64,000 nucleotides of DNA from Limnothrix sp. FACHB-406. Lineage in GTDB: Bacteria; Cyanobacteriota; Cyanobacteriia; CACIAM-69d. Each line of letters starts with the position of its first letter. Position 1 is the stretch's first letter. Location: contig NZ_JACJSP010000004.1 of NCBI RefSeq assembly GCF_014698235.1, forward strand, positions 186,001-250,000, read 5' to 3'. Below are positions 23,707 to 45,761 of this stretch, in pieces. The notes beneath the pieces were generated by a model. The model did no database searches, had not been told where the DNA came from, and was given only the letters and a program-made list of their open reading frames with translations. Position numbers and translations under genes: made by a program.

Positions 23707-24747
23707 TTAGAGATTACGCGAGCTGCCACTAAAGACCCGCTCTAATTGTTTGAAGTTTTCGAGAACGCGACCGGTTCCCAACACCACACAGCTCAGCGGA
23801 TCGGGAGCCACGTGAACCACGATGCCCGTTTCATGGCTGATCAGGGTGTCTAGGCCCTTGAGCAATGCGCCGCCGCCCGCCAGCATAATTCCCCGATCGA
23901 TGATGTCTGAGGCCAATTCCGGCGGGGTTCGTTCCAAAGTCCGCTTCACGGCTTCCACAATCACCGACAGCGGCTCCGACATGCTTTCGCGCACTTCGCC
24001 CTGTTTAACGGCAACGGTGCAAGGCAAACCGGACAGGAGGTGCAGTCCGCGCACTTCCAACACCACGTCATCTTCGTTGCTGGGGTAGGCAGAGCCAATT
24101 TGGATTTTGACTTCTTCCGCTGTCCGTTCCCCAATGACGAGGTTGTGGACTTTTTTCATGTATTGGGTGATGGATTCGCTGAGTTCATCGCCCGCCACGC
24201 GCACGGATTCGCTCAACACCGTCCCCTGCAAGCTGAGAACGGCAACTTCGGTTGTGCCGCCGCCGATGTCTACGATCATGTTACCGGTGGGTTCTGCCAC
24301 GGGCAGACCGGCCCCGATCGCCGCTGCGACCGGTTCATCAATCAAGTAAACGTCTCTGGCTCCGGCTTGGTGTGCCGCTTCCATGACGGCTCGCCGCTCC
24401 ACGCCGGTCACGCCGCTCGGAATTCCGATCACGATCCGGGGTGGCACCAGGGCTTTGCCTTCGTTGACGCGCCGAATGAAGTGCTTCAGCATCAACTCCG
24501 CTGTGTCGAAGTCGGCAATTACCCCGTCACGCAGGGGCCGCAGGGCCATGACGTTGCCGGGCGTTCGACCCAACATCTTTTTGGCATCTTCGCCAACCGC
24601 TAGGGGGACTCGCTTGTCTTGATCGATCGCCACGACGGACGGCTCTTGGAGCACGATGCCCTTGCCGGACACATACACCAAGGTATTGGCCGTCCCGAGG
24701 TCGATGCCCATATCCCGAGACAAGGAGAAGCCATTAAAAAGACCCAC
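23707..24747 (-). CDS. mreB: Rod shape-determining protein MreB
   Basis: Actin-like cytoskeletal ATPase that guides lateral cell-wall synthesis. 346 residues. Phosphate 1 motif MGIDLGTANTLVY, phosphate 2 IVDIGGGTTEVAVLSL, adenosine motif IMLAGGGALLKGLD. A short amphipathic N-terminus (MGLFNGFSLSRD) could bind the membrane. Starts with GTG. First gene of mreBCD. Confidence 0.97.
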   Translation of the reverse strand: MGLFNGFSLSRDMGIDLGTANTLVYVSGKGIVLQEPSVVAIDQDKRVPLAVGEDAKKMLGRTPGNVMALRPLRDGVIADFDTAELMLKHFIRRVNEGKALVPPRIVIGIPSGVTGVERRAVMEAAHQAGARDVYLIDEPVAAAIGAGLPVAEPTGNMIVDIGGGTTEVAVLSLQGTVLSESVRVAGDELSESITQYMKKVHNLVIGERTAEEVKIQIGSAYPSNEDDVVLEVRGLHLLSGLPCTVAVKQGEVRESMSEPLSVIVEAVKRTLERTPPELASDIIDRGIMLAGGGALLKGLDTLISHETGIVVHVAPDPLSCVVLGTGRVLENFKQLERVFSGSSRNL

Positions 24748-33433: not shown

Positions 33434-34102
33434 CTACTCCTTTCGGGTCAGGAGCACCGGGGTGCGGCCATCGTTGCCGTCATCCCGATCGCGTCCAGAA
33501 ACATGGGCGATCGCATCCTCAACCGCTGCCACCGCCGCCAAAATATCTCGCTCTTCGCCACCGAGGTACATCCGCCCAAAGCTGCCCACCGCCGTGATGT
33601 GCAGAATATTGATCAACGCGGCCTTTTCCGCCTCGTTGGCGGCCAGGGCCGCATAGGCCGCCGGTTCCACCTCAAAAACATAGAGGGTCTGACCCGCCAG
33701 CAGCATGTTGCCACGGCTGGTGCGGTTAATTAATTGCGCCTGGTGAGGATCAATATTGCGGATGATTTGGCTGGAGATGACGCGGGGCTTGAGGCGATCG
33801 CTCTCCCGCACTCCCAAAGCCTGCAAAATGGCCCGGCCCGCTGTCAGGGTTTCCCCTTGGCGGCTGGAGTGAATTTCTAACAGGCCATATAACCGTTCCA
33901 CAAACTGCACGCCGGGCCGCACGGAGGTGGCCTTGAGGGCCACATCGGTGATGCGGTTGATTTCAATCCCAGGCGATACTTCAATCCAAAGGGAACTGTC
34001 CCCGGGGAGCGGCAAGAAGCCGATCGCCACTGTGCCAATGTAGGCCGCATGTTGGGGTTGCAGGCGATCGAGATAAACGTAGCTTCGGAGTTCGATACCC
34101 AA
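33434..34102 (-). CDS. BMC-fold (bacterial microcompartment-like) protein, tandem domains
   Basis: About 222 residues from a TTG at 34102 ([11 protein letters not shown] start); a TTG at 34132 would add ten. No ATG is available. Two repeats resemble BMC shell domains: [29 protein letters not shown] in the N-terminal half, and [21 protein letters not shown] followed by an [10 protein letters not shown] helix in the second. Carboxysome genes are not nearby. Cyanobacteria do have stand-alone BMC-like proteins of unknown role. The family assignment is from pattern only. Overlaps functionally with the pentapeptide-repeat gene by close coupling. Confidence 0.55.
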
Positions 34103-34350
34103 GGAGGAGGCTGGCTTCCGCAGCGGGGGCAATGGCCGGAATCTGTGGGCAATCCACGGGCTTCATTGTGCCAAGGGGCCGGCCCCAGCACAAGGCCGAT
34201 CGCCCAAGGTGGGGGAACAGCGGGCGATCGGGTCAGAAAATTAGACCAGCTCGCAAAATCCCTCGCCAAAGGGAAGATTTTGGGGGGAAAACTTCCGGGT
34301 AGAATGTCGATCTATGCCTGCGCAACCCCTGTCTCTTGCGCCGTTAGTTA

Positions 34351-36081: not shown

Positions 36082-38361
36082 TTAAACAGCTTCTGCCAGT
36101 TCCGGCGCGGGCAATTGAGAAGCAATCGCCCAACCCGCGCGTCGAGGCAGCCGAATTTCAAAACCCGTTCCTTGACCCGGTGCAGACTGGCAACTGAGCC
36201 GACCATGGTGTTGTTCCACCACAATTTGGTAGGCGATCGACAGGCCTAAACCAGTGCCCTGACCGATCGGCTTGGTGGTGAAAAAGGGGTCAAAAATGCG
36301 TGATCGCACCTCTGGGTTAATGCCCGTACCGTTATCGGTAATTTTAACCACCACCTCATGGTCTTCCACGACCGTTTGAATGGTGATCTTGGGAACGAGT
36401 TTCGTGGAACTTTCCCCACCAGCAACACCATAGGCTAACGGCTGAAACTGGCTTTCCAGGGCATCGATCGCGTTGCTGAGTAAGTTCATAAAAACCTGGT
36501 TCACTTGCCCGGGATAGCATTCCACCAGCGGCAAATCACCATATTGGCGATCGATTTGAATCTCCAAGCCCTTCAACGAGGGTAAGAGTCGATGCTGCAA
36601 AATCAACAGCGTACTTTCCAAGCCCTCATGTAAATCCACCGCCTTCATTTCCGCTTCATCAACCCTTGAAAAATTACGCAGAGACAGTGCTAGCGATCGG
36701 ATGCGATCGGTGCCGGTCTTCATCGAGGTAATCAGCTTGGGTAAGTCAGTCTGAATAAAATCCAGATCGAGTTGATCAAGAATTTCTTCTTGCAAGTGAG
36801 GCGATTCTTGGTGTGTTTTCAGCAGTTGAATGATCTTCACCAGCTCCGCAGCATATTCTTCGAGATAACGCATATTGCCATAGATAAAACTGACAGGATT
36901 ATTCAATTCATGGGCAATTCCCGCTACTAATTGACCGAGGCTCGACATTTTTTCTGCCTGAATGAGTTGGAGTTGGGTTGATTGCAACTCTTGCAAGGTG
37001 GCTTGCAGGGTTTGTGCCTTTTCTTGTAAATGAACTTTGGATGTTCGGAGCTGGTCTTCCACCTGCTTGCGATTGGTAATGTCGGTGTGGGAACCGGCCA
37101 TGCGGTAGGGTCGCCCTTGATAGTTCCGTTGCAAGGTTCCTCGGCACAATACCCAGCGATAGGAACCATCACGATGTCGCAGGCGATATTCCAACTCCCA
37201 TTGGGTGCGATCGCTGGCAAAAAATTGGCTTAAGGCCTGAGTGAACCGATCGCGATCGTCGGGATGCAAGCGATCAAACCATTGATCAACATGGGGCGGA
37301 ATGTCTGCGGGTTGATAGCCCAACAAAGCCGCCCAGCGATCGGAAAATAGCGTCCGGCCCGTTTCCACCATCCAATCCCACAGACCATCGTGGGATCCCT
37401 TCACCGCCAGGGCAAAACTCGCCGTAGTGCGCCCAAAATCTCGATAGGGCGGCACTTGCAGCACCTGGAAACATTCATGCACTGACTGATAATTCAGGGG
37501 AATTGTCCAACCGGCGGCCCCAGCCGCTTGGGCTGCGGGCGCGTCAGTGGGCATCTGCAACAGCGCAATGGTCACCGCCTCCGCGATCGCCCGAGGAACC
37601 ATGGGCAAAACAGCGAAGGGCCATTCCGGATAGAGCCGAGTGCTGAGGGCAAAGGGCAGCGCCGACGGCACAATCGCTGGAGGCGGCAGAATTTGAATGG
37701 TGTTTAAGTCCAGCGCCCCCGTTGCCGCGAGCTGTTCCAAAACATGGGTGCTGACGATCCCCACCTCTGCTTGACCCGATTGCACGGCGGCCACCACCCG
37801 ATCGTGGCTCCCCAAAAACTCCAGCGCCGCAAAATCTCGATAGGGATCGATCGCCGCTTCGACCAATTCCCGCCACGCCATCCGCCAGCCCCCCAGGGAG
37901 GTTTCCGCCACCGCCGCCACCGATCGCCCCTTCAAATCTGACAACTGAGTCATGGGCAGGCGATCGCGCCGACTAAAAATTGCGCCGCCAAATTCCGTTA
38001 CCGGTTTTCCCAATTGCAGCGTTTTCAAAGTGGCAATTCGGTTCAGACCAAATTGTGTTTCAAACTCCACATACAGCCCCGGATTAACAATGGCAAACTG
38101 TACGGCTTGGCTGGCAATGGCTTGATGGATATCATCAAAGCTCAGGGGAACCATTGTAAATTGACGATTAGAAACAACGGCCGATAAATAATCAGCCGTT
38201 GGTTGCCACATGGACTCAGCAATCTTTAATCCTCGGTTGGCTAACACTCCAATTTTGAGTGCAGTGCCAAATTCAGATCCTTCACCATCCCATTCAGGAT
38301 TTTGGTGACTTGCCTCTCCAAAATTAAATGACTTTGCAGAACTAAATTGAATCGCTTTCAT
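36082..38361 (-). CDS. Sensor histidine kinase with TtrS/PhnD-like binding domain and PAS, no membrane anchor
   Basis: 759 residues. Domain order: PhnD/TtrS-like periplasmic-binding-protein fold (about 35-300; LKIGVLANRGLKIAESMWQP, VPLSFDDIHQAI, FAIVNPGLYVEFE), PAS_3 (about 315-433, ending in a PAC-like HTDITNRKQ), coiled coil (435-470), HisKA with the phospho-acceptor His484 in GIAHELNNPV, and HATPase with NLLSNAIDAL, DNGTGI and GTGLGLSI. In TtrS the first domain is periplasmic and senses tetrathionate. Here I see neither a signal peptide nor a transmembrane helix, so the sensor seems cytosolic. The gene start overlaps the rhodanese gene by 20 nt. No response regulator is adjacent. Confidence 0.88.
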   Translation of the reverse strand: MKAIQFSSAKSFNFGEASHQNPEWDGEGSEFGTALKIGVLANRGLKIAESMWQPTADYLSAVVSNRQFTMVPLSFDDIHQAIASQAVQFAIVNPGLYVEFETQFGLNRIATLKTLQLGKPVTEFGGAIFSRRDRLPMTQLSDLKGRSVAAVAETSLGGWRMAWRELVEAAIDPYRDFAALEFLGSHDRVVAAVQSGQAEVGIVSTHVLEQLAATGALDLNTIQILPPPAIVPSALPFALSTRLYPEWPFAVLPMVPRAIAEAVTIALLQMPTDAPAAQAAGAAGWTIPLNYQSVHECFQVLQVPPYRDFGRTTASFALAVKGSHDGLWDWMVETGRTLFSDRWAALLGYQPADIPPHVDQWFDRLHPDDRDRFTQALSQFFASDRTQWELEYRLRHRDGSYRWVLCRGTLQRNYQGRPYRMAGSHTDITNRKQVEDQLRTSKVHLQEKAQTLQATLQELQSTQLQLIQAEKMSSLGQLVAGIAHELNNPVSFIYGNMRYLEEYAAELVKIIQLLKTHQESPHLQEEILDQLDLDFIQTDLPKLITSMKTGTDRIRSLALSLRNFSRVDEAEMKAVDLHEGLESTLLILQHRLLPSLKGLEIQIDRQYGDLPLVECYPGQVNQVFMNLLSNAIDALESQFQPLAYGVAGGESSTKLVPKITIQTVVEDHEVVVKITDNGTGINPEVRSRIFDPFFTTKPIGQGTGLGLSIAYQIVVEQHHGRLSCQSAPGQGTGFEIRLPRRAGWAIASQLPAPELAEAV

Positions 38362-38701
38362 TCTTCACGACGGTTGGATAACCCGCTGCTTTCCAAGCTA
38401 AAATTCCTCCCTTCAGATGCACCAACGGTAGATTGCGATCGCGCAAGAGTCGCTGACCTCCTTCAGCCGATCGTCTGCCGCTGCGGCAATATAACACCAC
38501 TGTTCCCAATTCAGCGCTCCAAGCTATCCCATTTAGTTGACTCAAGGGTTGTAAAACAGCACCAGCAATATGCTCTGCCTCAAATTCTTGAACTTCTCTC
38601 ACATCAATTAAGGTAATTTTTTGAGTTTTCAACCATTGGTTGAGTGTCTCAGGTGTGATTTCTGAAACTGTTTGTTCCGAGATGATCTCTTGAATACTCA
38701 T
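38342..38701 (-). CDS. Single-domain rhodanese (sulfurtransferase)
   Basis: 119 residues. One rhodanese domain with the CDC25-like ITLIDVREVQEFEAEHIAGA start and active-site loop CRSGRRS, whose Cys carries persulfide. Cytosolic. Its stop lies 20 nt inside the histidine kinase gene, indicating coupled translation, and the ABC permease gene ends 172 nt upstream on the same strand. It could hand sulfane sulfur to, or report it to, the overlapping sensor (inference). Confidence 0.93.
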   Translation of the reverse strand: MSIQEIISEQTVSEITPETLNQWLKTQKITLIDVREVQEFEAEHIAGAVLQPLSQLNGIAWSAELGTVVLYCRSGRRSAEGGQRLLRDRNLPLVHLKGGILAWKAAGYPTVVKNESDSI

Positions 38702-38873
38702 GATGTTTAGAATTGAAGATTGAGACTTGAGACTGGAGACTTGAGGTTTATTGCAATCGTTCGAGATCTTTCTAAAATGGGCTATTCAGAACGCCTAGAA
38801 AAATCAACCTAAACATCACAATGTTATTTGTGTTTTCACTGGCTGTGGTTTGACTGAATGCAATCAACAGAAA

Positions 38874-39680
38874 CTAGGAATAATGGGTGAGGCGATTGAG
38901 CGATCGCAACCCGGTATCCAGCCCATAGCCGATCGCACCGATGGTCAAAATCGCAGCCATCAATTCGCTATAGGCCAGGCGATCGCGCGTATCCAAAATG
39001 AAGTAGCCCAAGCCCGAGCTAACCCCTAACATTTCGGCGGGCACTAACACGATCCAAATCACGCCGACTGCCAGCCGCAGCCCTACGAAAAGGTGCGGCC
39101 CGATCGCGGGCAAAATGACCCGACCAATCACCTCCCAACGGGTTGCACAAAGGCTGCGGGCTAACAGCAACCATCGCCGATCGACGCTATGCACTCCCGC
39201 CGCCGCATTCAGCAACACGGGCCAAACCGCCGCCACGGTGAGCAGAAAGTACACGGGCGCATCTCCAATCCCAAAGGCCATCACAGCCAGTGGCATCCAA
39301 GACAGGGGCGACACCATCCGCACAAACTGAAACAGAACAGACGTGCCCTGCTCCAGGGGCCGCCACAGCCCCAGGGCAATGCCAACGGGAATCCCAATCA
39401 GGGCGGCAGCGGCTAAGCCAACCACGACCCGCCGCAAACTCGCGCCAATGTGGGGTTCCAACGTGCCGTCACCCAGCAGCTTCAGGACGGTGGTGAGCGA
39501 TTTTTCTGGTGAAAAGTCCCCCACGATCGCGCCGGGATGCAACAGCGGGGACGTGAGCGCCCACCACAGCAATAGCCCCAGCAGCAGGCCAAGCAAGGGG
39601 CTACTCACGATCCCCAACACTCCGCGAAGTTGTCGAGCAACGCCCGATCGCCCTGCTTTTTGCCACATTCCAACCGCCAT
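38874..39680 (-). CDS. ABC transporter permease (nitrate/sulfonate/taurine type)
   Basis: 268 residues with about six membrane helices. BPD_transp_1 family of the SsuC/TauC/NrtB group: GASLRRVVVGLAAAALIGIPVGIALGLW region, the ATPase-contacting EAA loop around LLARSLCATRWEVIGRVILPAIGPHLF, and GLGYFI near the C-terminus. Last gene of an importer operon with its ATPase and binding protein upstream; 225 nt separate it from the binding-protein gene. Confidence 0.92.
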   Translation of the reverse strand: MAVGMWQKAGRSGVARQLRGVLGIVSSPLLGLLLGLLLWWALTSPLLHPGAIVGDFSPEKSLTTVLKLLGDGTLEPHIGASLRRVVVGLAAAALIGIPVGIALGLWRPLEQGTSVLFQFVRMVSPLSWMPLAVMAFGIGDAPVYFLLTVAAVWPVLLNAAAGVHSVDRRWLLLARSLCATRWEVIGRVILPAIGPHLFVGLRLAVGVIWIVLVPAEMLGVSSGLGYFILDTRDRLAYSELMAAILTIGAIGYGLDTGLRSLNRLTHYS

Positions 39681-39790
39681 GGCTGCCCAATCCCTCCAAT
39701 GCCTAATAGCTTGTCTTGACGATGCTGAATGAGTGGGGCCAATGAGTGGAATCGCTGGCCACCCTTCCCCGAAATCGGCGTGAATCTAGA

Positions 39791-39820
39791 TCGGCATGAC
39801 TCGGCATGACTCGGCATGAC
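39791..39820. repeat. 10-bp tandem repeat, three exact copies
   Basis: TCGGCATGAC three times head to tail, in the spacer between the binding-protein and permease genes of the importer. Confidence 0.95.
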
Positions 39821-39905
39821 TGTGATCTGTCGATCGGGAACTGACCCGGTCAAATTGACGTGGAATTGATGCTGAAGCGAGCTGGATCGGGTGATGCCCA
39901 AGGCT

Positions 39906-41228
39906 TCAGAGCGCGATCGTTTCCTTGCGGGTCAGGTTTTCGGGTAACCGGAAGGCAGCGGGGCCGCCCACCGCAGCCAAGGCCGCCTTCACCAAGGAGT
40001 CATCCACCAAGTCTTGGGCCACCCACTCGGGGTCAAGATCCTGTAAAAACTGGGTTTCTCCTTCCACTTGGGTTTCCTTGAGCAAGCGCACCAACTCAGC
40101 GGTGTAGGACGGAAAAGGATAGGGTTGAAAATCAATTCGATCGATCTGCCAATCGGGATGGGCGATCGCCCCTTGGGCTTTATAAACGGCTGGGTCGTAG
40201 GCCGTTAGGGCCCGAATCAGGGCTGCTTTCGGATGAGGCGTATATTTGCCCCCCTCCTTCGACAAAATTTCAGCCACACCTGCGCGGTTTTCGCCGCTCC
40301 AATGCTGGGCCTTGACGATCGCCTGCACCACCCGCTGCGCCCAATCGGGATGCTGGGTGAGGTCGTCTTCATGCATCAGCACCACACAGCAGGCGTGATC
40401 CTTCCACACATCGCCGGTAAAGCGCAGAATTTTGCCTGTTTTGAGGTTTTCTGCCGCCGCGTTGAAAGGTTCCGCCACGATGTAGCCCGCGATCGCTTGG
40501 TTGGCGAGGGCCGAAACCATATCCGGTGGCGGCAGCACAATTAAATTCACCTCGTTGGCGGCCACCTTGGCCTCTTTGGGCCGCCGCACCACCTTCAATC
40601 CTGCTTTCTTCAGCAGTTGCTGGAGCACCACGTTGTGGATTGAATACCAAAAGGGTACAGCCACCTTGCGACCGCCCAGGTCTTCCAGGCGATTAATTTC
40701 CGGCAAGACGGTCAGGGCTGAACCATTGGTGTGATTCCAGGCCACAATCTTGGCCGGAAACTTGCGGCCATAGCGCAACCACAAGGTGGCGGGCATCAGG
40801 ATATGGATGACATTCACCTGTCTGGCCAAAAACGCTTCGACCACCTGCGGCCAAGAACGAAAGAGGGTTGGTTTTTCGGCCGTTAGTCCCTCCGCTTGGT
40901 ATAGCTCGCGGGCATGGGCCACCAACAGGGGAGCCGCATCGGTGATCGGCAGGTAGCCAATTTTGACCGGGGGTTGGGCCGTGGGTGTCGCCGGGGCTGA
41001 AGCAGCGGGGCTAGATTGAGCGGGGCCTTGGGTTGGCTGGCAGCCCCCGACGGCCAGGGTTGCCCCCAGGGAGGCTGAGAATAGTCCTGTGAGTTGCAGG
41101 AAATCTCGCCGACTGAGGCCGCAGCAGTCGCAACCCAGGCCGGCAGTGGGGCCGCTGGCAAAGGGGGGCGCAATCCAATGGGGGGTGGCACGGCTCGATC
41201 GAGCGCGGGCTTGGCGATCGCTGGTCAT
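39906..41228 (-). CDS. ABC transporter substrate-binding protein (NMT1/SsuA-like), Tat lipoprotein
   Basis: 440 residues. A twin-arginine signal (SRRDFLQLTGLF, about residues 39-50) leads to a lipobox-like AVGGC, so it is probably a folded-exported, lipid-anchored binding protein. The mature part begins PVKIGYLPITDAAPLLVAHA, as in NrtA/CmpA/SsuA relatives, followed by HILMPATLWLRYG, and PFWYSIHNVVLQQLLKKAGL. Overlaps the ATPase gene by ATGA. Ligand could be nitrate, bicarbonate, sulfonate, taurine or a nitrile-type compound; the flavoprotein partner favours an organosulfur compound (inference). A CDCC motif precedes the Tat signal. Confidence 0.9.
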   Translation of the reverse strand: MTSDRQARARSSRATPHWIAPPFASGPTAGLGCDCCGLSRRDFLQLTGLFSASLGATLAVGGCQPTQGPAQSSPAASAPATPTAQPPVKIGYLPITDAAPLLVAHARELYQAEGLTAEKPTLFRSWPQVVEAFLARQVNVIHILMPATLWLRYGRKFPAKIVAWNHTNGSALTVLPEINRLEDLGGRKVAVPFWYSIHNVVLQQLLKKAGLKVVRRPKEAKVAANEVNLIVLPPPDMVSALANQAIAGYIVAEPFNAAAENLKTGKILRFTGDVWKDHACCVVLMHEDDLTQHPDWAQRVVQAIVKAQHWSGENRAGVAEILSKEGGKYTPHPKAALIRALTAYDPAVYKAQGAIAHPDWQIDRIDFQPYPFPSYTAELVRLLKETQVEGETQFLQDLDPEWVAQDLVDDSLVKAALAAVGGPAAFRLPENLTRKETIAL

Positions 41229-42259
41229 GGTTGGACACCTCCCGCGATCGAGGGCAGAACAACGGGGTCAATCACGGTCAACAACTCCTCTAAAATTTCG
41301 CGACGCAGGGCCCCTTGGGCGGCGGGGTCTCGCAGGGCGCGATCGTTCGGATCTGTGGGGGGTGATCGCAAAATCCACTGGCGACGAATCCGCCCGGGAT
41401 TGCGATCCATCAACACCACCCGATCGCCCAGGGCCAAAGCCTCATCAATGTCGTGGGTGACCATGAGCACGGCCGCTGGGTAGCGGGCGATCGCCTGAAG
41501 CAGCAGCGCTTGCATCGATCGGCGCGTAATCGCATCCAGGGCGCTGAACGGTTCATCCAACAGCAGCAGTTCCGGTTGCCGCACCAGGGCCCGTGCCAGG
41601 GCCACCCGCTGCGCCATCCCGCCCGAGAGTTGGTGAGGATAGGCCCGTTCCACGCCCCCTAAGCCAACGCTGGCCAAGGCTTCGGCCGCGCGCGATCGGG
41701 CAACTGCTTTGGCAATGGTGGGCATTCGCCGCAACTTCAATCCCCAGGTGATGTTTTGGGTCACCGTTAACCAGGGCAGCAAGGCCGGCCCCTGAAACAC
41801 CATCCCCACCGAGGGTTGTGGCTCTTGGATAGGTTGACCCTTCAGCCGCACTTCTCCGGCCGTGGCCCGTTGCAAACCGGCGATGGCCAACAGCAGAGAA
41901 GACTTGCCGCAACCGCTGGGGCCCAGCAGGCAAACCAACTCCCGAGGGTGAAGGTCGAGGTTAATTTGCGCGAAGGCCAAGACCCGATCGCGTCCTGCGG
42001 AGTAGTGATGGGTTAGCCCCCGCACGGTCAGTAATGGGCGATCCGTTCGATCTGTTTGATCCGTTTCCCGATCGGCCGCAGCGTTCCCGACACCGGATTG
42101 AGGTGCGACTGATGGGGGCGATCGAAGAGTTGAGGTTTTGAGGCGATCGGGCGGCTTTGGGGTAGGGATGTCTGAGACCGTGGATGAGCGATCGGGTAAC
42201 TCCCCGGACTCCCACAGATCCGGCGATCGGCCCACGGTCACCGGCAGCAACTCACTCAT
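41225..42259 (-). CDS. ABC transporter ATP-binding protein (SsuB/TauB/NrtD type)
   Basis: 344 residues. About 75 residues of polar low-complexity sequence precede the ABC domain. Walker A GPSGCGKSS, Q-loop GMVFQGPALLPW, signature LSGGMAQRVALARAL, Walker B LLLLDEPFSALD, H-loop VTHDIDEAL. Overlaps both neighbours by four bases (ATGA), so ATPase, binding protein and flavoprotein are one translational unit. Powers uptake of the unknown ligand. Confidence 0.95.
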   Translation of the reverse strand: MSELLPVTVGRSPDLWESGELPDRSSTVSDIPTPKPPDRLKTSTLRSPPSVAPQSGVGNAAADRETDQTDRTDRPLLTVRGLTHHYSAGRDRVLAFAQINLDLHPRELVCLLGPSGCGKSSLLLAIAGLQRATAGEVRLKGQPIQEPQPSVGMVFQGPALLPWLTVTQNITWGLKLRRMPTIAKAVARSRAAEALASVGLGGVERAYPHQLSGGMAQRVALARALVRQPELLLLDEPFSALDAITRRSMQALLLQAIARYPAAVLMVTHDIDEALALGDRVVLMDRNPGRIRRQWILRSPPTDPNDRALRDPAAQGALRREILEELLTVIDPVVLPSIAGGVQP

Positions 42260-43494
42260 CGCCTGACCTCCGATCGGGAGGGCGATCGACTCGCGGCGGT
42301 TTTGGCGATCGACGGTGGAATGGCCCCCGTAGCCAGACCGGGGGCAGTGGTCAGGGCTGTGCGGGAGGGGTTGTGGATCGCGGGGCTGATGGTTGACTCA
42401 ATTTCCGGGGTAATCGCGGTGGCGGGCGTGACGCGGGCCAACTCCGTTTCCAGTTGCACCAAGCTGGGGGTGAGCACCGGTAAAAACGCTACTTCCCGCC
42501 AGCGCCGGGCCGTTGCATGGTCGTTGAGATAGGCCCCGCCCCCCTGTGCTTCCAACTCCAGCGTGATGGCATCCACGGCCAGGCGGGTTAAGGCAATGCG
42601 GACTTCAAACAGATGCCGCGTTTCAGCAAAGGAAAACTCGGAGAGCGCCGCCAATTGCCGCAGTTGCGTGGCCAGCTCGTCGTAGCGGTGATCAAGCTGC
42701 TGCAAGGCTCCCCGCAATACCTGCGATCGGGTTTGGAGCGTGTTGCGAATGGCCCGCCGAGCCGATCGAGCCTTGCCCAAACTCAAACCGCACTGCAACA
42801 GCAAGAATGCCGGCCGAATGGTTGGCAGAAACTGCCTTGCTCGATCGCTCAAAACCCAAGTGCGATCGACCTCCACCCCTTCCAGGGTTAAGGCCGCCGT
42901 GTTGGAACCACGCAGCCCCAACAAATCCAAATCCGCACTACGCGACAGGCCCGGGGTATTCGCCGGAATCACCGCCACGATCGCCTCCCCCTCAGGGGTT
43001 TCCGCCGCCACCGCCACCAAAAACTCACCCGGCACTAAATTAGAAGCCCAGGGCAAATGGCCATCCAAGCGTAACCGTTGCCCCTGCCAACGGGCTTGTA
43101 CCCGCAAGGCCTCAATACCCGCCAAGTGCTTCATGGCGTTCGATAAACCCGTCGCGCCGAAGCGATCAGCCCGTACCACCTGGGGCAGGAGGGTTTGGCG
43201 CAACTTGTCGTTATCACTGGCCACCAAATATTCCGCAAAGGCTCGCTGGCACCAAAACACAAAGGCGCTGGTTAAGCAGTCCTCCGCCGTTTGGGCGATC
43301 GCCTCGATGGCATCCAAGCGCGTGCCCCCCGTCCCGCCTTGGCGCTCAGGAATGCCCAGCCCAAGCCAGCCAACCGATGCCAACAACCGCAACGAGTTCC
43401 GACTGTCTCGGTAACCCTCGCCATCATTCACTGCTTGGGCTTGCTCCGCCAGCAAAGCCCGAATCGCCTGTGGATCGACAACACCAGTTTTCAC
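42256..43494 (-). CDS. Acyl-CoA dehydrogenase-fold flavoprotein (DszC/SfnB-like)
   Basis: 412 residues. Acyl-CoA dehydrogenase fold: N-terminal helices with LGLGIPERQGGTGGTRLDA, middle beta domain (FGATGLSNAMKHLAG, RLDGHLPWASN, ADLDLLGLRGSNTAALTLEGVEVD) and C-terminal helices with the expected GGGAYLNDH. Relatives include true acyl-CoA dehydrogenases, DszC-type sulfur-heterocycle monooxygenases and SfnB, a dimethylsulfone-linked enzyme. The last 50 residues are low complexity. Starts with GTG, immediately after a 2-codon ATG-TGA. First gene of the importer operon, which suggests it processes the imported compound. Confidence 0.82.
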   Translation of the reverse strand: MKTGVVDPQAIRALLAEQAQAVNDGEGYRDSRNSLRLLASVGWLGLGIPERQGGTGGTRLDAIEAIAQTAEDCLTSAFVFWCQRAFAEYLVASDNDKLRQTLLPQVVRADRFGATGLSNAMKHLAGIEALRVQARWQGQRLRLDGHLPWASNLVPGEFLVAVAAETPEGEAIVAVIPANTPGLSRSADLDLLGLRGSNTAALTLEGVEVDRTWVLSDRARQFLPTIRPAFLLLQCGLSLGKARSARRAIRNTLQTRSQVLRGALQQLDHRYDELATQLRQLAALSEFSFAETRHLFEVRIALTRLAVDAITLELEAQGGGAYLNDHATARRWREVAFLPVLTPSLVQLETELARVTPATAITPEIESTISPAIHNPSRTALTTAPGLATGAIPPSIAKTAASRSPSRSEVRR

Positions 43495-43594
43495 ATCTAT
43501 TGCCTACAGAATGATTGCCTACAAAATTACCGACCTAAATCGACCCTAAATTGGTCATTTTTCTGGGCATTAACCTGAGTCTTAAACCTGAGTC

Positions 43595-44122
43595 TTAGTC
43601 CAGCGTTTCCAGACTGGTGAGCCGATCGATGGGCGCACCCACCACCTCGCGGGCTTGCTTCACCGTTGCCTCATCGGGACTGTCATAAAAACAGAGACAC
43701 TTACTCAAGTCTTCGCAAACATAGGTTCGCTCAAAGGAAACTGCCGGTACTTGAGCATAAAGAGGGGATTTTTCAGCCTTGCGTTGCAAATACTTTTCCA
43801 TCGTTAGCCCCGCTGGCAAATCCCATTCCACCAGGTAATTAGCTTTGTCCTTCTGGTTTTTAACGGCAGCTAAGTCTTGCCCCACCAAGCGCACAGGTTT
43901 AACTAGCTCGATCGTCAGGCTACTATTCAAAAAAGCCGCACGCACTGATACTTCATCCTGGGCATCAAGAATGGCAAAAAGCCGAAAAAGATCCTTGCCA
44001 ATTTGGGCCTCAATCAATTCCGAATCGGTTGCGAGGGCCGCTTTTGATACTTGATCCAAAGCGGTACGAATTTCATCCCCATGCCGGTTCAATATGGATG
44101 CTTCAACCAAAAATAGTGTCAT
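43595..44122 (-). CDS. DUF4242-family protein (duplicated ferredoxin-like fold)
   Basis: 175 residues from the ATG at 44122, chosen because an AGGAG Shine-Dalgarno lies about ten bases upstream; an earlier in-frame start has none. The C-terminal half (NYLVEWDLPAGLTMEKYLQ, FERTYVCEDLSKCLCFYDSPDEATVKQA) is the DUF4242 domain, whose Streptomyces relative SCO4226 binds nickel. The N-terminal half (MTLFLVEASILNR...) repeats the same alpha/beta pattern. Cytosolic. Same strand as, and 100 nt upstream of, the flavoprotein operon. Confidence 0.7.
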   Translation of the reverse strand: MTLFLVEASILNRHGDEIRTALDQVSKAALATDSELIEAQIGKDLFRLFAILDAQDEVSVRAAFLNSSLTIELVKPVRLVGQDLAAVKNQKDKANYLVEWDLPAGLTMEKYLQRKAEKSPLYAQVPAVSFERTYVCEDLSKCLCFYDSPDEATVKQAREVVGAPIDRLTSLETLD

Positions 44123-44443
44123 TTTTATCTCTCCTGGTTCTTCGGTTTTGGGCAATGATTGGCAGAAAATTCAGGCTAGTCGATTCATACAGCCTTTACC
44201 GAGAACGATTGGTGCGTCAAACCGCAGGTGCTATGAAGCGGTTAGGAGGTGGGCAATGCCCACCCTACAGGTTTGAGCTAGGTACAGGCTGTAATTTTGA
44301 ATCAAGTGAATTTTGAATCAAAGGGATTGGTCAATCAGTACCGGATCAATGCTGATCAACGGGTTAAAGATTGACCAATTTTGACAACCGACCCCAAGAA
44401 TCAAAATCCTGGCCTGAATTTTCAGTCAGCTTTGGGTCAATGC
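44123..44443. other. Gap between the DUF4242 and sulfurtransferase genes, with a dispersed palindrome
   Basis: Contains a 17-bp palindrome GGTGGGCA-A-TGCCCACC (44248-44264) followed by CTACAG. This resembles a small intergenic palindrome common in cyanobacteria. Nothing else recognised. Confidence 0.6.
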
Positions 44444-45439
44444 CTAGGCGCGATCAGGGCCAGTTTCCACCGGTAAATCAGTGGTGCTGTACTCAGTCCA
44501 AGACCCTTCATAAATGCGCACATTGGGATAGCCCAAAAGATGCTTCAGCACCACATATTGCAAAGTGGCTTCCCGTCCAGTGCTGCAAGAAACAATGATT
44601 TGTTTGTCGGGGGTGATGTTACGGCTGGCCAGAATCTGCCGAATTTCATCCAAGGACTTCAGCTTGTGGGGATTTTTGAGCGCTTCTTGGGAATTGTTGG
44701 CTTCGGTAAAGGTTGGCCAAGGAATATTTCTCGCGCCGGGAATGTGACCGTTTCGCACCCAAAGGGGCTTTTCACCGCTGAATAATTCCGGAGGGCGAGG
44801 GTCAATAAAAACCACGTTGGGCTGGCCAATTAATTTCCGCACATCGGCCAGGGTGACGCGAACGGAGGGATCGTCTTTGAGTTGGAATGTTTGCCGATCG
44901 TACCGGGGATATTCCTTGGTGACGGTTTGACCCGAGGTCTGATAACCGGCAAAGCCACCATCCACGATCGCAATGTCTTTGACTCCCGATCGCTCCAACA
45001 GGTAGGCCACCATGGTTGCGCCTAACACGTCATTGCCGTTGGAATAAACGGCGACCTTTTGGCGATTGTTAACCCCAGCTTTGCCAAAGAGCGATGCGAT
45101 TTTTTCGTTGTCCCAATATTGCACCGGCAAAAAGCCATCGGGGCCGCGAAAGGCTAAATCTGCAATATGCACAGCGCCGGGAACATGGCCCCCGATGTAG
45201 TCCAGGGGCGAGTTGCGCACATCCAAAACGCGCAAGTTGGTATCACTCAAATGTTGGCTGAGCCACTGGGGTGACACAAATTCAATTTTCGCCTTGGGAG
45301 CGTTGGCGACGGCGGGTAAGGCCCAAGTGGGCAACAACACCACAAGGGCGATCGCCAACATGCCCCACAGCCAGGTTGTGAAGTGCCAACGCCGGAACGC
45401 TCGTTTTGTCCAACGATCGCTGCCATTGATCCTGCCCAT
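44444..45439 (-). CDS. Two-domain sulfurtransferase (thiosulfate/3-mercaptopyruvate type), membrane-anchored or exported
   Basis: 331 residues. A Lys/Arg-rich start and a hydrophobic segment (about 20-45, ending ALPAVANA) form a signal peptide or anchor, so the enzyme faces the periplasm or lumen. Two rhodanese domains follow; the first is inactive-like (YSNGND in place of the Cys loop) and the second has the active loop CSTGRE. The pattern is that of SseA/TST. It would transfer sulfane sulfur from thiosulfate or mercaptopyruvate. Same strand as the downstream DUF4242-flavoprotein-ABC-rhodanese-kinase block. Confidence 0.9.
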   Translation of the reverse strand: MGRINGSDRWTKRAFRRWHFTTWLWGMLAIALVVLLPTWALPAVANAPKAKIEFVSPQWLSQHLSDTNLRVLDVRNSPLDYIGGHVPGAVHIADLAFRGPDGFLPVQYWDNEKIASLFGKAGVNNRQKVAVYSNGNDVLGATMVAYLLERSGVKDIAIVDGGFAGYQTSGQTVTKEYPRYDRQTFQLKDDPSVRVTLADVRKLIGQPNVVFIDPRPPELFSGEKPLWVRNGHIPGARNIPWPTFTEANNSQEALKNPHKLKSLDEIRQILASRNITPDKQIIVSCSTGREATLQYVVLKHLLGYPNVRIYEGSWTEYSTTDLPVETGPDRA

Positions 45440-45761
45440 TTGTCGAAACCCTCATTTGCCCTTGAACTGCTTGGATCTATAAAGACCGGTTTTCCGATCG
45501 GATTACCGTTTAATGCAGTGCATGGTATCACTCCTGTTCCAAAAAGTCCACTTTCCCGATCGGGTTACCGATGATTACCAAGAAACGATCGGGGCAAGCG
45601 CTCCTGGGGGGAATTGTCCGGTTGGCTGAATCCTTGGCGGGCAAAGAGATGGAAGTTAGGCTAGGCGATAATGGCCCCAGCCGATCGCCCTGTGGATTGG
45701 CTCCCGACCTGGGCCCGATGGCTGGCCGGGTCGATCGCTCGTCGCTCATTGGTTTTTCATC
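45440..45761. other. Intergenic region between divergent sulfurtransferase and GT4 genes
   Basis: Holds two similar blocks with TTCC(G/C)GATCGG(A/G)TTACCG near 45490 and 45552. No convincing gene. Confidence 0.45.

Follow-up and report, generated by a model that had tools for sequence, protein, structure and literature searches.

The 64,000-nucleotide stretch of Limnothrix sp. FACHB-406 analysed here (hereafter the window; G000:C4:186001-250000 of a 4.5-Mb genome) carries eight co-directional minus-strand genes at 36082-45439. Five of them, running from a DUF4242 gene through a flavoprotein gene to the genes of an ABC transporter, are the main subject of this work, together with two operator-like palindromes that precede the block. 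Genomes, contigs and loci are designated by G, C and L numbers, respectively. This copy of the operon lies on a 337-kb contig between flanks that look by eye like metF/rimM and glycosyltransferase genes, and the closest named relative among the loci found was Limnothrix sp. CACIAM 69d, whose flavoprotein is 96% identical. All eight open reading frames (ORFs) of the original prediction were present and the overlaps it described were confirmed, namely 4 nt between flavoprotein and ATPase, 4 nt between ATPase and binding protein, and 20 nt between the second rhodanese and the kinase. The remaining four junctions are gaps of 321, 100, 225 and 172 nt, so that a single transcript is not implied. In gene order, the Pfam labels were Rhodanese, SCO4226-like (PF14026), Acyl-CoA_dh_N, ABC_tran, NMT1_2, BPD_transp_1, Rhodanese, and Phosphonate-bd with PAS and HATPase_c. 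The names originally given to the genes held at this level, but SsuA, SfnB/DszC and TtrS all fell under the curated cutoffs. The listed DUF4242 ORF opens at a TTG 11 codons upstream of the ATG at 44122, which we prefer as the start because homologues begin there (Table 1).

Table 1 Genes and operator-like sites of the Limnothrix locus (window coordinates)
Feature	Position	Strand	Basis
Two-domain rhodanese/sulfurtransferase, N-terminal hydrophobic segment	44444..45439	-	Pfam Rhodanese twice
DUF4242 / SCO4226-like protein	43595..44122	-	PF14026, structure model
Acyl-CoA-dehydrogenase-fold flavoprotein	42256..43494	-	Pfam, structure model, alignment
ABC transporter ATPase	41225..42259	-	PF00005; 4-nt overlap with each neighbour
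Tat-type lipoprotein substrate-binding protein (NMT1_2)	39906..41228	-	Pfam, Tat model; lipobox by eye
ABC transporter permease	38874..39680	-	PF00528; 3' of binding protein in relatives too
Single-domain rhodanese, loop CRSGRRSA	38342..38701	-	PF00581
Predicted cytoplasmic histidine kinase	36082..38361	-	PhnD-type binding domain, PAS, HisKA, HATPase
Proximal operator-like palindrome CGGTAATCCGATCGGAAAACCG (minus-strand reading)	45487..45508	.	Matrix scan, 19-mer core
Distal operator-like site CGGTAACCCGATCGGGAAAGTG (minus-strand reading)	45549..45570	.	Matrix scan, 19-mer core

The core of DUF4242, flavoprotein, ATPase, binding-protein and permease genes recurred on Synechococcus elongatus pANL and in Kovacikia, and a version with an AhpD-like CMD gene instead of DUF4242 was found in Deinococcus, Agrobacterium and Variovorax, as well as in Roseomonas, where the record breaks off behind the binding-protein gene. 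Among flavoprotein relatives in named genomes (the best 80 of 458, mostly Pseudomonas), a partner gene with flavoprotein, ATPase, binding protein and permease was complete at 75 of the 80 loci, and at 71 of the 72 with full flanks on both sides, L040 being the exception. The upstream partner at these 80 loci was CMD in 68 and DUF4242 in 11, and an AraC gene stood beside 67 of the 68 CMD loci. Within cyanobacteria, matches to the flavoprotein profile occurred in 60 of 388 genomes at E ≤ 1e-30 and in ten at E ≤ 1e-130; we read the neighbourhoods of all ten and of five of the 50 others. Seven of the ten close genomes hold the complete core (the window genome, its sister, G016, G303, G104, G182 and G265), and three are incomplete, with a short ATPase ORF in G270, no binding protein found in G066, and a flavoprotein without the core in G074. 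The operon is accessory, since no close flavoprotein copy was found in G002 (same genus) or G003-G005 (same family). At the five distant cyanobacterial loci, OsmC occupies the DUF4242 place before a flavoprotein of 29-31% identity, and the binding protein is 70% identical in two (L179 and L181) and 25-26% identical in the other three. The five-gene order exceeds chance and recurs in several phyla. As a separate observation, the ATPase of Microcystis aeruginosa LEGE 91341 (L043/L170) and the flavoprotein of L048 each appear as two or more ORFs, which suggests frameshifts or decay.

The surroundings of the operon were then compared. On pANL, the five genes stand in the Limnothrix order (53% identity for the flavoprotein, 65% for the binding protein) in a sulfur region of srp genes with the SrpI/CyD encapsulin. 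They are immediately preceded by cysK and gamma-glutamyltransferase genes, EpsC, SrpI and CyD are 10-12 kb away, and, unlike in Limnothrix, no two-domain rhodanese or kinase adjoins them. The first reading of the window knew of no described cyanobacterial system with this gene set. The pANL operon has the same five genes in the same order, but no functional description of it was found in a search that the two primary pANL papers lay outside. The pANL sequence paper is dated 2008 by citing reference lists, and published accounts name the pANL sulfur region, state that pANL encodes many sulfur-related genes with the SrpI gene among many induced by sulfur starvation, and assign a cluster for sulfur metabolism to both pANL and its relative (PMC9239245). 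Elsewhere, SrpI lies 4.6 kb (L078) and 9.0 kb (L098) behind the flavoprotein. In G066 the order is CysW, CysA, a membrane protein, a Crp-type regulator, MgtC, an unknown gene, the two-domain rhodanese, DUF4242, flavoprotein, ATPase and permease, with CysW (404.6 vs 329.1 bits) and the sulfate ATPase (447.2 vs 342.75 bits) above their cutoffs. In L165, TauE lies within the operon, and in Kovacikia it follows the operon as second gene. No sulfur gene adjoined the operon in Microcystis with the reference set used. An organosulfur role is well supported because of the srp genes on pANL, the TauE, CysW-CysA and SrpI neighbours, and the palindrome, described below, that is common to ssuD and sulfate-transport genes. 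Of the predicted organosulfur import and metabolism, the part that concerns the five-gene core is thus well supported, and the part that concerns the first rhodanese more weakly, but the idea that all eight genes form one conserved system is not supported. We also noted that the two loci with SrpI encapsulin genes by the operon belong to a gammaproteobacterial metagenome-assembled genome (MAG) and a Sideroxydans MAG (L078, L098), with EpsC in both, CyD in L078 and CysK in L098; these genes stand about 3 to 6 kb (L078) and about 7 to 9 kb (L098) beyond the flavoprotein.

The two-domain rhodanese gene is preceded by tandem palindromes of the CGGT-N14-ACCG type, 62 bp (about six helical turns) apart. 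The proximal site ends 47 nt 5' of the rhodanese start codon, with a -10-like TATAGAT within a few bases, and the sites in Kovacikia and L165 are followed by TAGATT. Given the -10-like sequence just after the site, a bound protein would cover the -35 region, which would favour repression. An initial upstream palindrome search had yielded many chance pairs before the common motif was recognised, and a promoter/terminator scan gave no signal beyond chance level. The common 19-mer core of the two sites occurs without mismatch only at these two places in 4.5 Mb, with five further sites at two mismatches; in the window, two occurrences with at most two mismatches were observed against 0.01 expected. 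We then scanned with a matrix built from 12 sites of other genera, Limnothrix being left out. In the 64-kb window the proximal site ranked first (22.71) and the distal site third (11.48), the second match (17.05, at 24331) falling inside an unrelated ORF; column-shuffled matrices reached the top score in 1 of 200 trials. The matrix also ranked first a site 183 nt 5' of ssuD in the same genome (L195; 12.13, next 4.15), one 80 nt 5' of DUF4242 on pANL (10.49, next 5.99) and, weakly, one 50 nt 5' of DUF4242 in G016 (4.82, next 3.43). Palindromes of the CGGT-N14-ACCG form lie 30 nt 5' of DUF4242 in Kovacikia and 21 nt 5' in L165. When each locus was left out in turn, the top match lay 5' of a sulfur- or glutathione-related gene at seven of eight loci (at 378 nt in L166); in L271, the exception, it lay 5' of a 2-hydroxyacid dehydrogenase gene and the ssuD site came third. 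The sites in the matrix were chosen partly for their position at these loci, and therefore these ranks test the sequence and not the choice of locus. Across ten other cyanobacterial loci (157 kb), 2 of 157,094 positions scored at least 12 and none 15, and one of the two was the ssuD site of the window genome itself.

For SsuD, SsuA and the sulfate-transport proteins, the names of genes behind such sites in other cyanobacteria come from one or more models scoring above cutoff, and FMN reductase was named by Pfam. In G074, a site 57 nt 5' of SsuD (638.7 vs 510 and 613 vs 518 bits) is followed by FMN reductase, SsuA (266.7 vs 163.5), permease, ATPase and a flavoprotein of the SfnB/DszC type (311 and 371 bits, below the cutoffs), in a cluster that also holds a sulfate-binding protein (277 vs 155.5). 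Another site lies 378 nt 5' of a second SsuD. G182 has sites by SsuD (655 vs 510) and, at 22 nt, before a set of sulfate-binding protein (270 vs 155.5), OAH sulfhydrylase (705 vs 495), MetX (412 vs 331) and CysT (406 vs 246); a further site stands 27 nt 5' of another sulfate-binding protein. The genes behind sites in G144 encode an NtaA/DmoA-type monooxygenase (538 vs 279.7), OsmC, an arylsulfotransferase-like protein, CMD and an FAD oxidoreductase, and the gene in G150 a glutathione transferase. In 637 kb of cyanobacterial loci, mostly selected around the operon and in part entered twice, the strict palindrome had five matches (four distinct sites) and seven control palindromes none, while the relaxed form had six and four controls 0, 2, 0 and 0. 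Genome-wide, 6 of the 27 strict sites lie within about 22 kb of the flavoprotein gene (3/3 in G074, 1/1 in G150 and 2/6 in G144), and 9 of the 15 that were examined in gene context have a sulfur-, glutathione- or redox-type gene no more than 450 bp away. Independently of these counts, an identical palindrome, CGGTAAATGCGTGTGTTAACCG, was noted at G041:C181:21495 and G205:C18:1801.

As for the protein that may read these sites, CymR/Rrf2 proteins are sulfur repressors of Firmicutes. Rrf2 genes occur on pANL, at a distance of about 7 kb from the operon, and in Kovacikia, three genes behind it. Those of G104, G074, G303 and G182 form one clade, group B (support 0.82; 0.95 with G066 added), and all four (L249, L250, L251, L252) have an upstream matrix match, at 124, 37, 161 and 140 nt with scores of 24.0, 14.5, 15.45 and 9.7 in the same genome order. 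In both respects they resemble the CymR system, with the difference that the link between Rrf2 and the palindrome is a proposed one and that no group B member was found in Limnothrix. The latter has a group A Rrf2 and a second, more distant one, and group A also occurs in genomes without the operon. Rrf2 presence itself does not discriminate, as all 13 genomes asked have a homologue. Because the Limnothrix Rrf2 belongs to group A and has no upstream site, Rrf2 is a candidate regulator in the window and not a demonstrated one.

We consider it probable that the genes from 44122 to 38874 form an organosulfur import and processing operon for sulfate scarcity, controlled by a repressor at the tandem palindromes; its substrate, chemistry, repression and regulator are what we infer from comparison. 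The Tat-exported lipoprotein would bind a small sulfur compound, probably the same one across phyla, which the permease and ATPase would import. The flavoprotein would attack the imported compound, most likely as a reduced-flavin monooxygenase, and DUF4242, a small partner, may deal with peroxide or with a reactive sulfur intermediate. Sulfane sulfur would be passed on by the first rhodanese, the gene that bears the operator-like sites. A repressor, perhaps Rrf2 (CymR-like), would bind the tandem CGGT-N14-ACCG-type sites overlapping the promoter, and transcription would probably be off under sulfur sufficiency. The operator is the part that looks new, the candidate site being apparently undescribed. 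In the literature consulted, which included few subscription papers, we recognised no paper that deals with the five genes, with an operator of this kind or with such a role of Rrf2. To our knowledge, no sulfur-limitation operator has been described for cyanobacteria other than S. elongatus, where, according to PMC12016511, CysR governs sulfate assimilation. The wider proposal takes CGGTAA-N10-TTACCG for a so far undescribed operator through which an Rrf2 (CymR-like) repressor controls a sulfur-limitation regulon of cyanobacteria; jointly with the regulon and the cross-phylum importer, we regard this proposal as evenly balanced. If true, the regulon would bring together rhodaneses, ssuD operons and other luciferase-like monooxygenases with genes for sulfate transport, OAH sulfhydrylase and MetX and with OsmC/DUF4242-flavoprotein-ABC operons, and the operator would control a cross-phylum organosulfur importer whose small partner is exchanged (CMD, OsmC, DUF4242) while the binding protein stays constant.

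Several observations weigh against this reading. The strict palindrome CGGTWA-N10-TWACCG had 27 sites in 24 genomes compared with 94 for a reversed control, and therefore its placement, not its frequency, speaks. Ten of the 24 genomes have no strict site, among them the window genome, its sister, G104 and G016, and the sites in the window deviate in one arm. Four of the 15 palindromes examined lie inside ORFs (two in G303, one each in G182 C17 and G196), one overlaps an ORF start (G196), and one is more than 450 bp away from any gene start (G074 30561). Operator scores are low on pANL and in G016 (the values given above), and no convincing operon site was found in Microcystis, the Armatimonad, G066, Deinococcus or most proteobacterial copies. 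The best match at the group A Rrf2 gene (12.0) lies behind the gene. With regard to the chemistry, the nearest listed folds of the flavoprotein are dehydrogenases rather than DszC/MsuC, and no flavin reductase gene adjoins the operon in the window, PF03358 being the reductase family searched; the one PF03358 protein in the genome is unlinked to the operon.

The flavoprotein had been called DszC/SfnB-like. A distant likeness remains of this label, with a partial match of 50.1 bits to SfnB (cutoff 430.9) and 22.6 bits to DszC (cutoff 850), but not a full-length match near cutoff. Its structure model (pLDDT 84.7, with the tail 358-405 under 50) has the acyl-CoA dehydrogenase fold and aligns with isovaleryl-CoA dehydrogenase 8sgr_A over 348 residues (Z 40.7, 2.3 A). 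The Foldseek and VIA lists contained acyl-CoA dehydrogenases, oxidases and a few relatives; DszC and MsuC were not among the 50 structure rows shown, which excludes nothing. Enzymes of this fold carry a catalytic Glu at either of two positions. In the flavoprotein alignment, position 229 (set by profile alignment to isovaleryl-CoA dehydrogenase 1ivh) holds A, C, S, G, N or R and position 341 (set by hand alignment) L or V, and Glu occurs at neither in 35 of 35 rows; Arg84 and Gln234 are invariant. A Variovorax relative (L035), outside the 35-row alignment, has Glu at the first position. The reaction likely differs from acyl-CoA dehydrogenation because neither catalytic position ever holds Glu in the 35 rows.

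The alternative that keeps the sulfur role and makes the flavoprotein a non-oxygenase, either a C-S cleaving or desulfinating enzyme or a dehydrogenase on a thioester or thioether, is unlikely but deserves the most weight among those considered. The fold also includes a desulfinase, and 5af7 and 5ahs, which we take to be 3-sulfinopropionyl-CoA desulfinase structures, match the flavoprotein profile nearly end to end (9-351 of 359). Together with the dehydrogenase-like nearest folds, the two empty Glu positions and the invariant Arg84 and Gln234, this speaks for a non-oxygenase. The match to the NCBIfam 3-sulfinopropionyl-CoA desulfinase model points the same way but is weak, at 27.6 bits against a cutoff of 600, and no CoA ligase or CoA transferase is among the eight genes. 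No desulfinase sequence above cutoff was found in 13 genomes or records, so that an active-site alignment with the flavoprotein lacks a partner. The oxygenase reading that we prefer draws on the group D two-component monooxygenases, namely DszC, MsuC and the Acinetobacter baylyi enzymes; according to PMC13352529, the latter are reduced-flavin monooxygenases of this fold that oxidise DMSO and methanesulfinate. The Limnothrix flavoprotein shares their acyl-CoA-dehydrogenase fold and organosulfur context and differs by its low sequence scores, its nearer dehydrogenase folds and the lack of a reductase gene in the operon.

DUF4242 matched PF14026 at 69 bits (cutoff 28.5) and has a conserved C-x5-C-x-C motif in an alignment of eight. 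Its model consists of two fused ferredoxin-like halves (pLDDT 91.6) and belongs with the SCO4226-like proteins, the best VIA match being SCO4226 4oi6 (Z 12.2, 80 aligned, 1.8 A). A likeness to sulfur oxygenase reductase (Z about 10, 3.6-3.8 A, 170-171 aligned) was set aside as too weak for function. Since AhpD-like CMD or OsmC takes its position in other lineages, and AhpD structures match the CMD protein of Variovorax at 166 bits, the partner swap may be an exchange of peroxidase-type helpers, which for DUF4242 itself we infer by analogy. It differs from the AhpD/CMD and OsmC thiol peroxidases in its unrelated SCO4226-like fold. LsfA of the Pseudomonas ssu operons is a further close comparison.

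The genes on either side of the core were less constant. The two-domain rhodanese has a single Cys, 285, within a CSTGREAT loop, scored 123 bits against the 3-mercaptopyruvate sulfurtransferase model (cutoff 250), and has 1uar and 1urh as its best solved relatives. It adjoins the operon in three of the ten close cyanobacterial genomes (the window genome, its sister G001, and G066, whose homologue is 71% identical). The kinase has a HisKA motif, HELN, with His484, and a HisKA score slightly below cutoff. TtrS has an exported sensor domain with membrane segments; the TtrS-like identity first proposed was ruled out by a score of 184 bits against the NCBIfam TtrS cutoff of 750 and by the absence of a clear membrane segment or signal in the hydropathy profile. 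The kinase sensor domain was found at E ≤ 1e-20 in 16 of 194 genomes. Comparison of neighbourhoods across cyanobacteria, as had been suggested, supported clustering for the five-gene core but not for the kinase, as the operon was absent from all six neighbourhoods of kinase homologues that we read, out of 14 further genomes that have one.

That all eight genes form one sensing, import and metabolism system with a TtrS-like sensor kinase, as originally proposed, is improbable. They are co-directional, and the sister Limnothrix genome has the same eight with an MgtC gene placed among them. MgtC is also found next to the G096 kinase homologue and, on pANL and in G066, in the vicinity of the operon. 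Among the neighbourhoods read, however, the full set recurs only in that sister, and the rhodanese-kinase pair is linked to the operon in two of the ten close genomes, both Limnothrix. Further points against one system are junction gaps of 172-321 nt, the identity and topology of the kinase given above, and the placement of high-scoring window operator sites only 5' of the first rhodanese, barring the one within the unrelated ORF. The rhodanese-kinase pair is a lineage-specific neighbour in Limnothrix, and our reading of the five-gene operon does not include it. As observations in their own right, MgtC-family genes near the operon or a kinase homologue were located in four genomes (L172:7445-7972, L178:7068-7598, L168:3987-4550 and L031:12400-12948), and the G096 kinase homologue (L178:7932-10062), with MgtC adjacent, is in two overlapping frames, a probable frameshift.

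The binding protein has the features of a Tat-type lipoprotein (Tat signal 19.9 bits vs cutoff 16.7; lipobox by eye). The proposed SsuABC-type transporter could not be upheld, as the binding protein scored 100.6 bits against the SsuA_fam cutoff of 163.5. SsuD is absent from the window locus, and the sole luciferase-like protein found in the genome sits on C5, at a separate locus with SsuD (621 vs 510 bits), SsuA_fam (264.1 vs 163.5) and a paralogous flavoprotein of 360 bits to DszC and 271 bits to SfnB, both below cutoff. The C5 locus passes the SsuD and SsuA cutoffs, and therefore the window operon is a second, different system. Canonical SsuABC/SfnB was ruled out by these scores and this separate locus. 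In a tree of 27 sequences, in which the window and C5 proteins were each entered twice, the binding protein was 52-71% identical to 12 relatives and stood apart from the other nine NMT1_2 proteins of the genome (17-29%), which clustered elsewhere with support. On this tree an NrtA/CmpA-type transporter was ruled out, the genome's own comparators there not being individually named NrtA or CmpA. The closest solved relative by phmmer was 3un6 (1.4e-19), followed by NrtA (2g29, 5.5e-14), with bicarbonate-transport chains lower. Import of a non-sulfur oxyanion (nitrate, bicarbonate or cyanate) beside coincidental sulfur neighbours is very improbable, for although NrtA and a bicarbonate-binding protein are among the best solved relatives, the nine other NMT1_2 proteins cluster elsewhere, sulfur genes adjoin the operon in at least five loci, and the operator-like site is common to ssuD and sulfate-transport genes. 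The binding protein retains 70% identity even in L179 and L181, which have OsmC in place of DUF4242 and a flavoprotein of only 31% identity, and its ligand is likely common to all phyla.

The transporter-enzyme operon differs from described organosulfur acquisition systems while being related to them. With SsuABCD(E) and its SfnB/DszC-type flavoprotein, as in the C5 copy, it shares the importer superfamily, a flavoenzyme partner and an operator-like site, which is the top matrix match 5' of ssuD (L195) and also precedes the ssuD-FMN reductase-ssuA genes of G074. It differs in having no SsuD or adjacent reductase, another flavoprotein subfamily, extra DUF4242 and rhodanese genes, and a binding protein that shares 20% identity with the C5 SsuA and falls short of the SsuA cutoff. 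Cyanobacteria, Pseudomonas, Achromobacter, Deinococcus and an Armatimonadetes genome share this widespread and probably organosulfur-related transporter-enzyme operon, and we found no functional name for it. A concrete operator-like sequence and a candidate regulon are now available for reporter testing, and the conserved binding protein makes ligand discovery tractable.

Two minor observations concern other genes. The window encodes at 33434-34132 a 232-aa protein with no Pfam match at E 0.001. A beta-carbonic-anhydrase-type gene lies inside the operon in two loci (L165:2189-2770 and L166:2992-3573) and about 6 kb before it on pANL (L031:10600-11178); the nearest solved relatives of the L165 protein were beta-carbonic anhydrases (a carbonic anhydrase at 159 bits), ahead of COS hydrolase at 110 bits and CS2 hydrolase at 98 bits.

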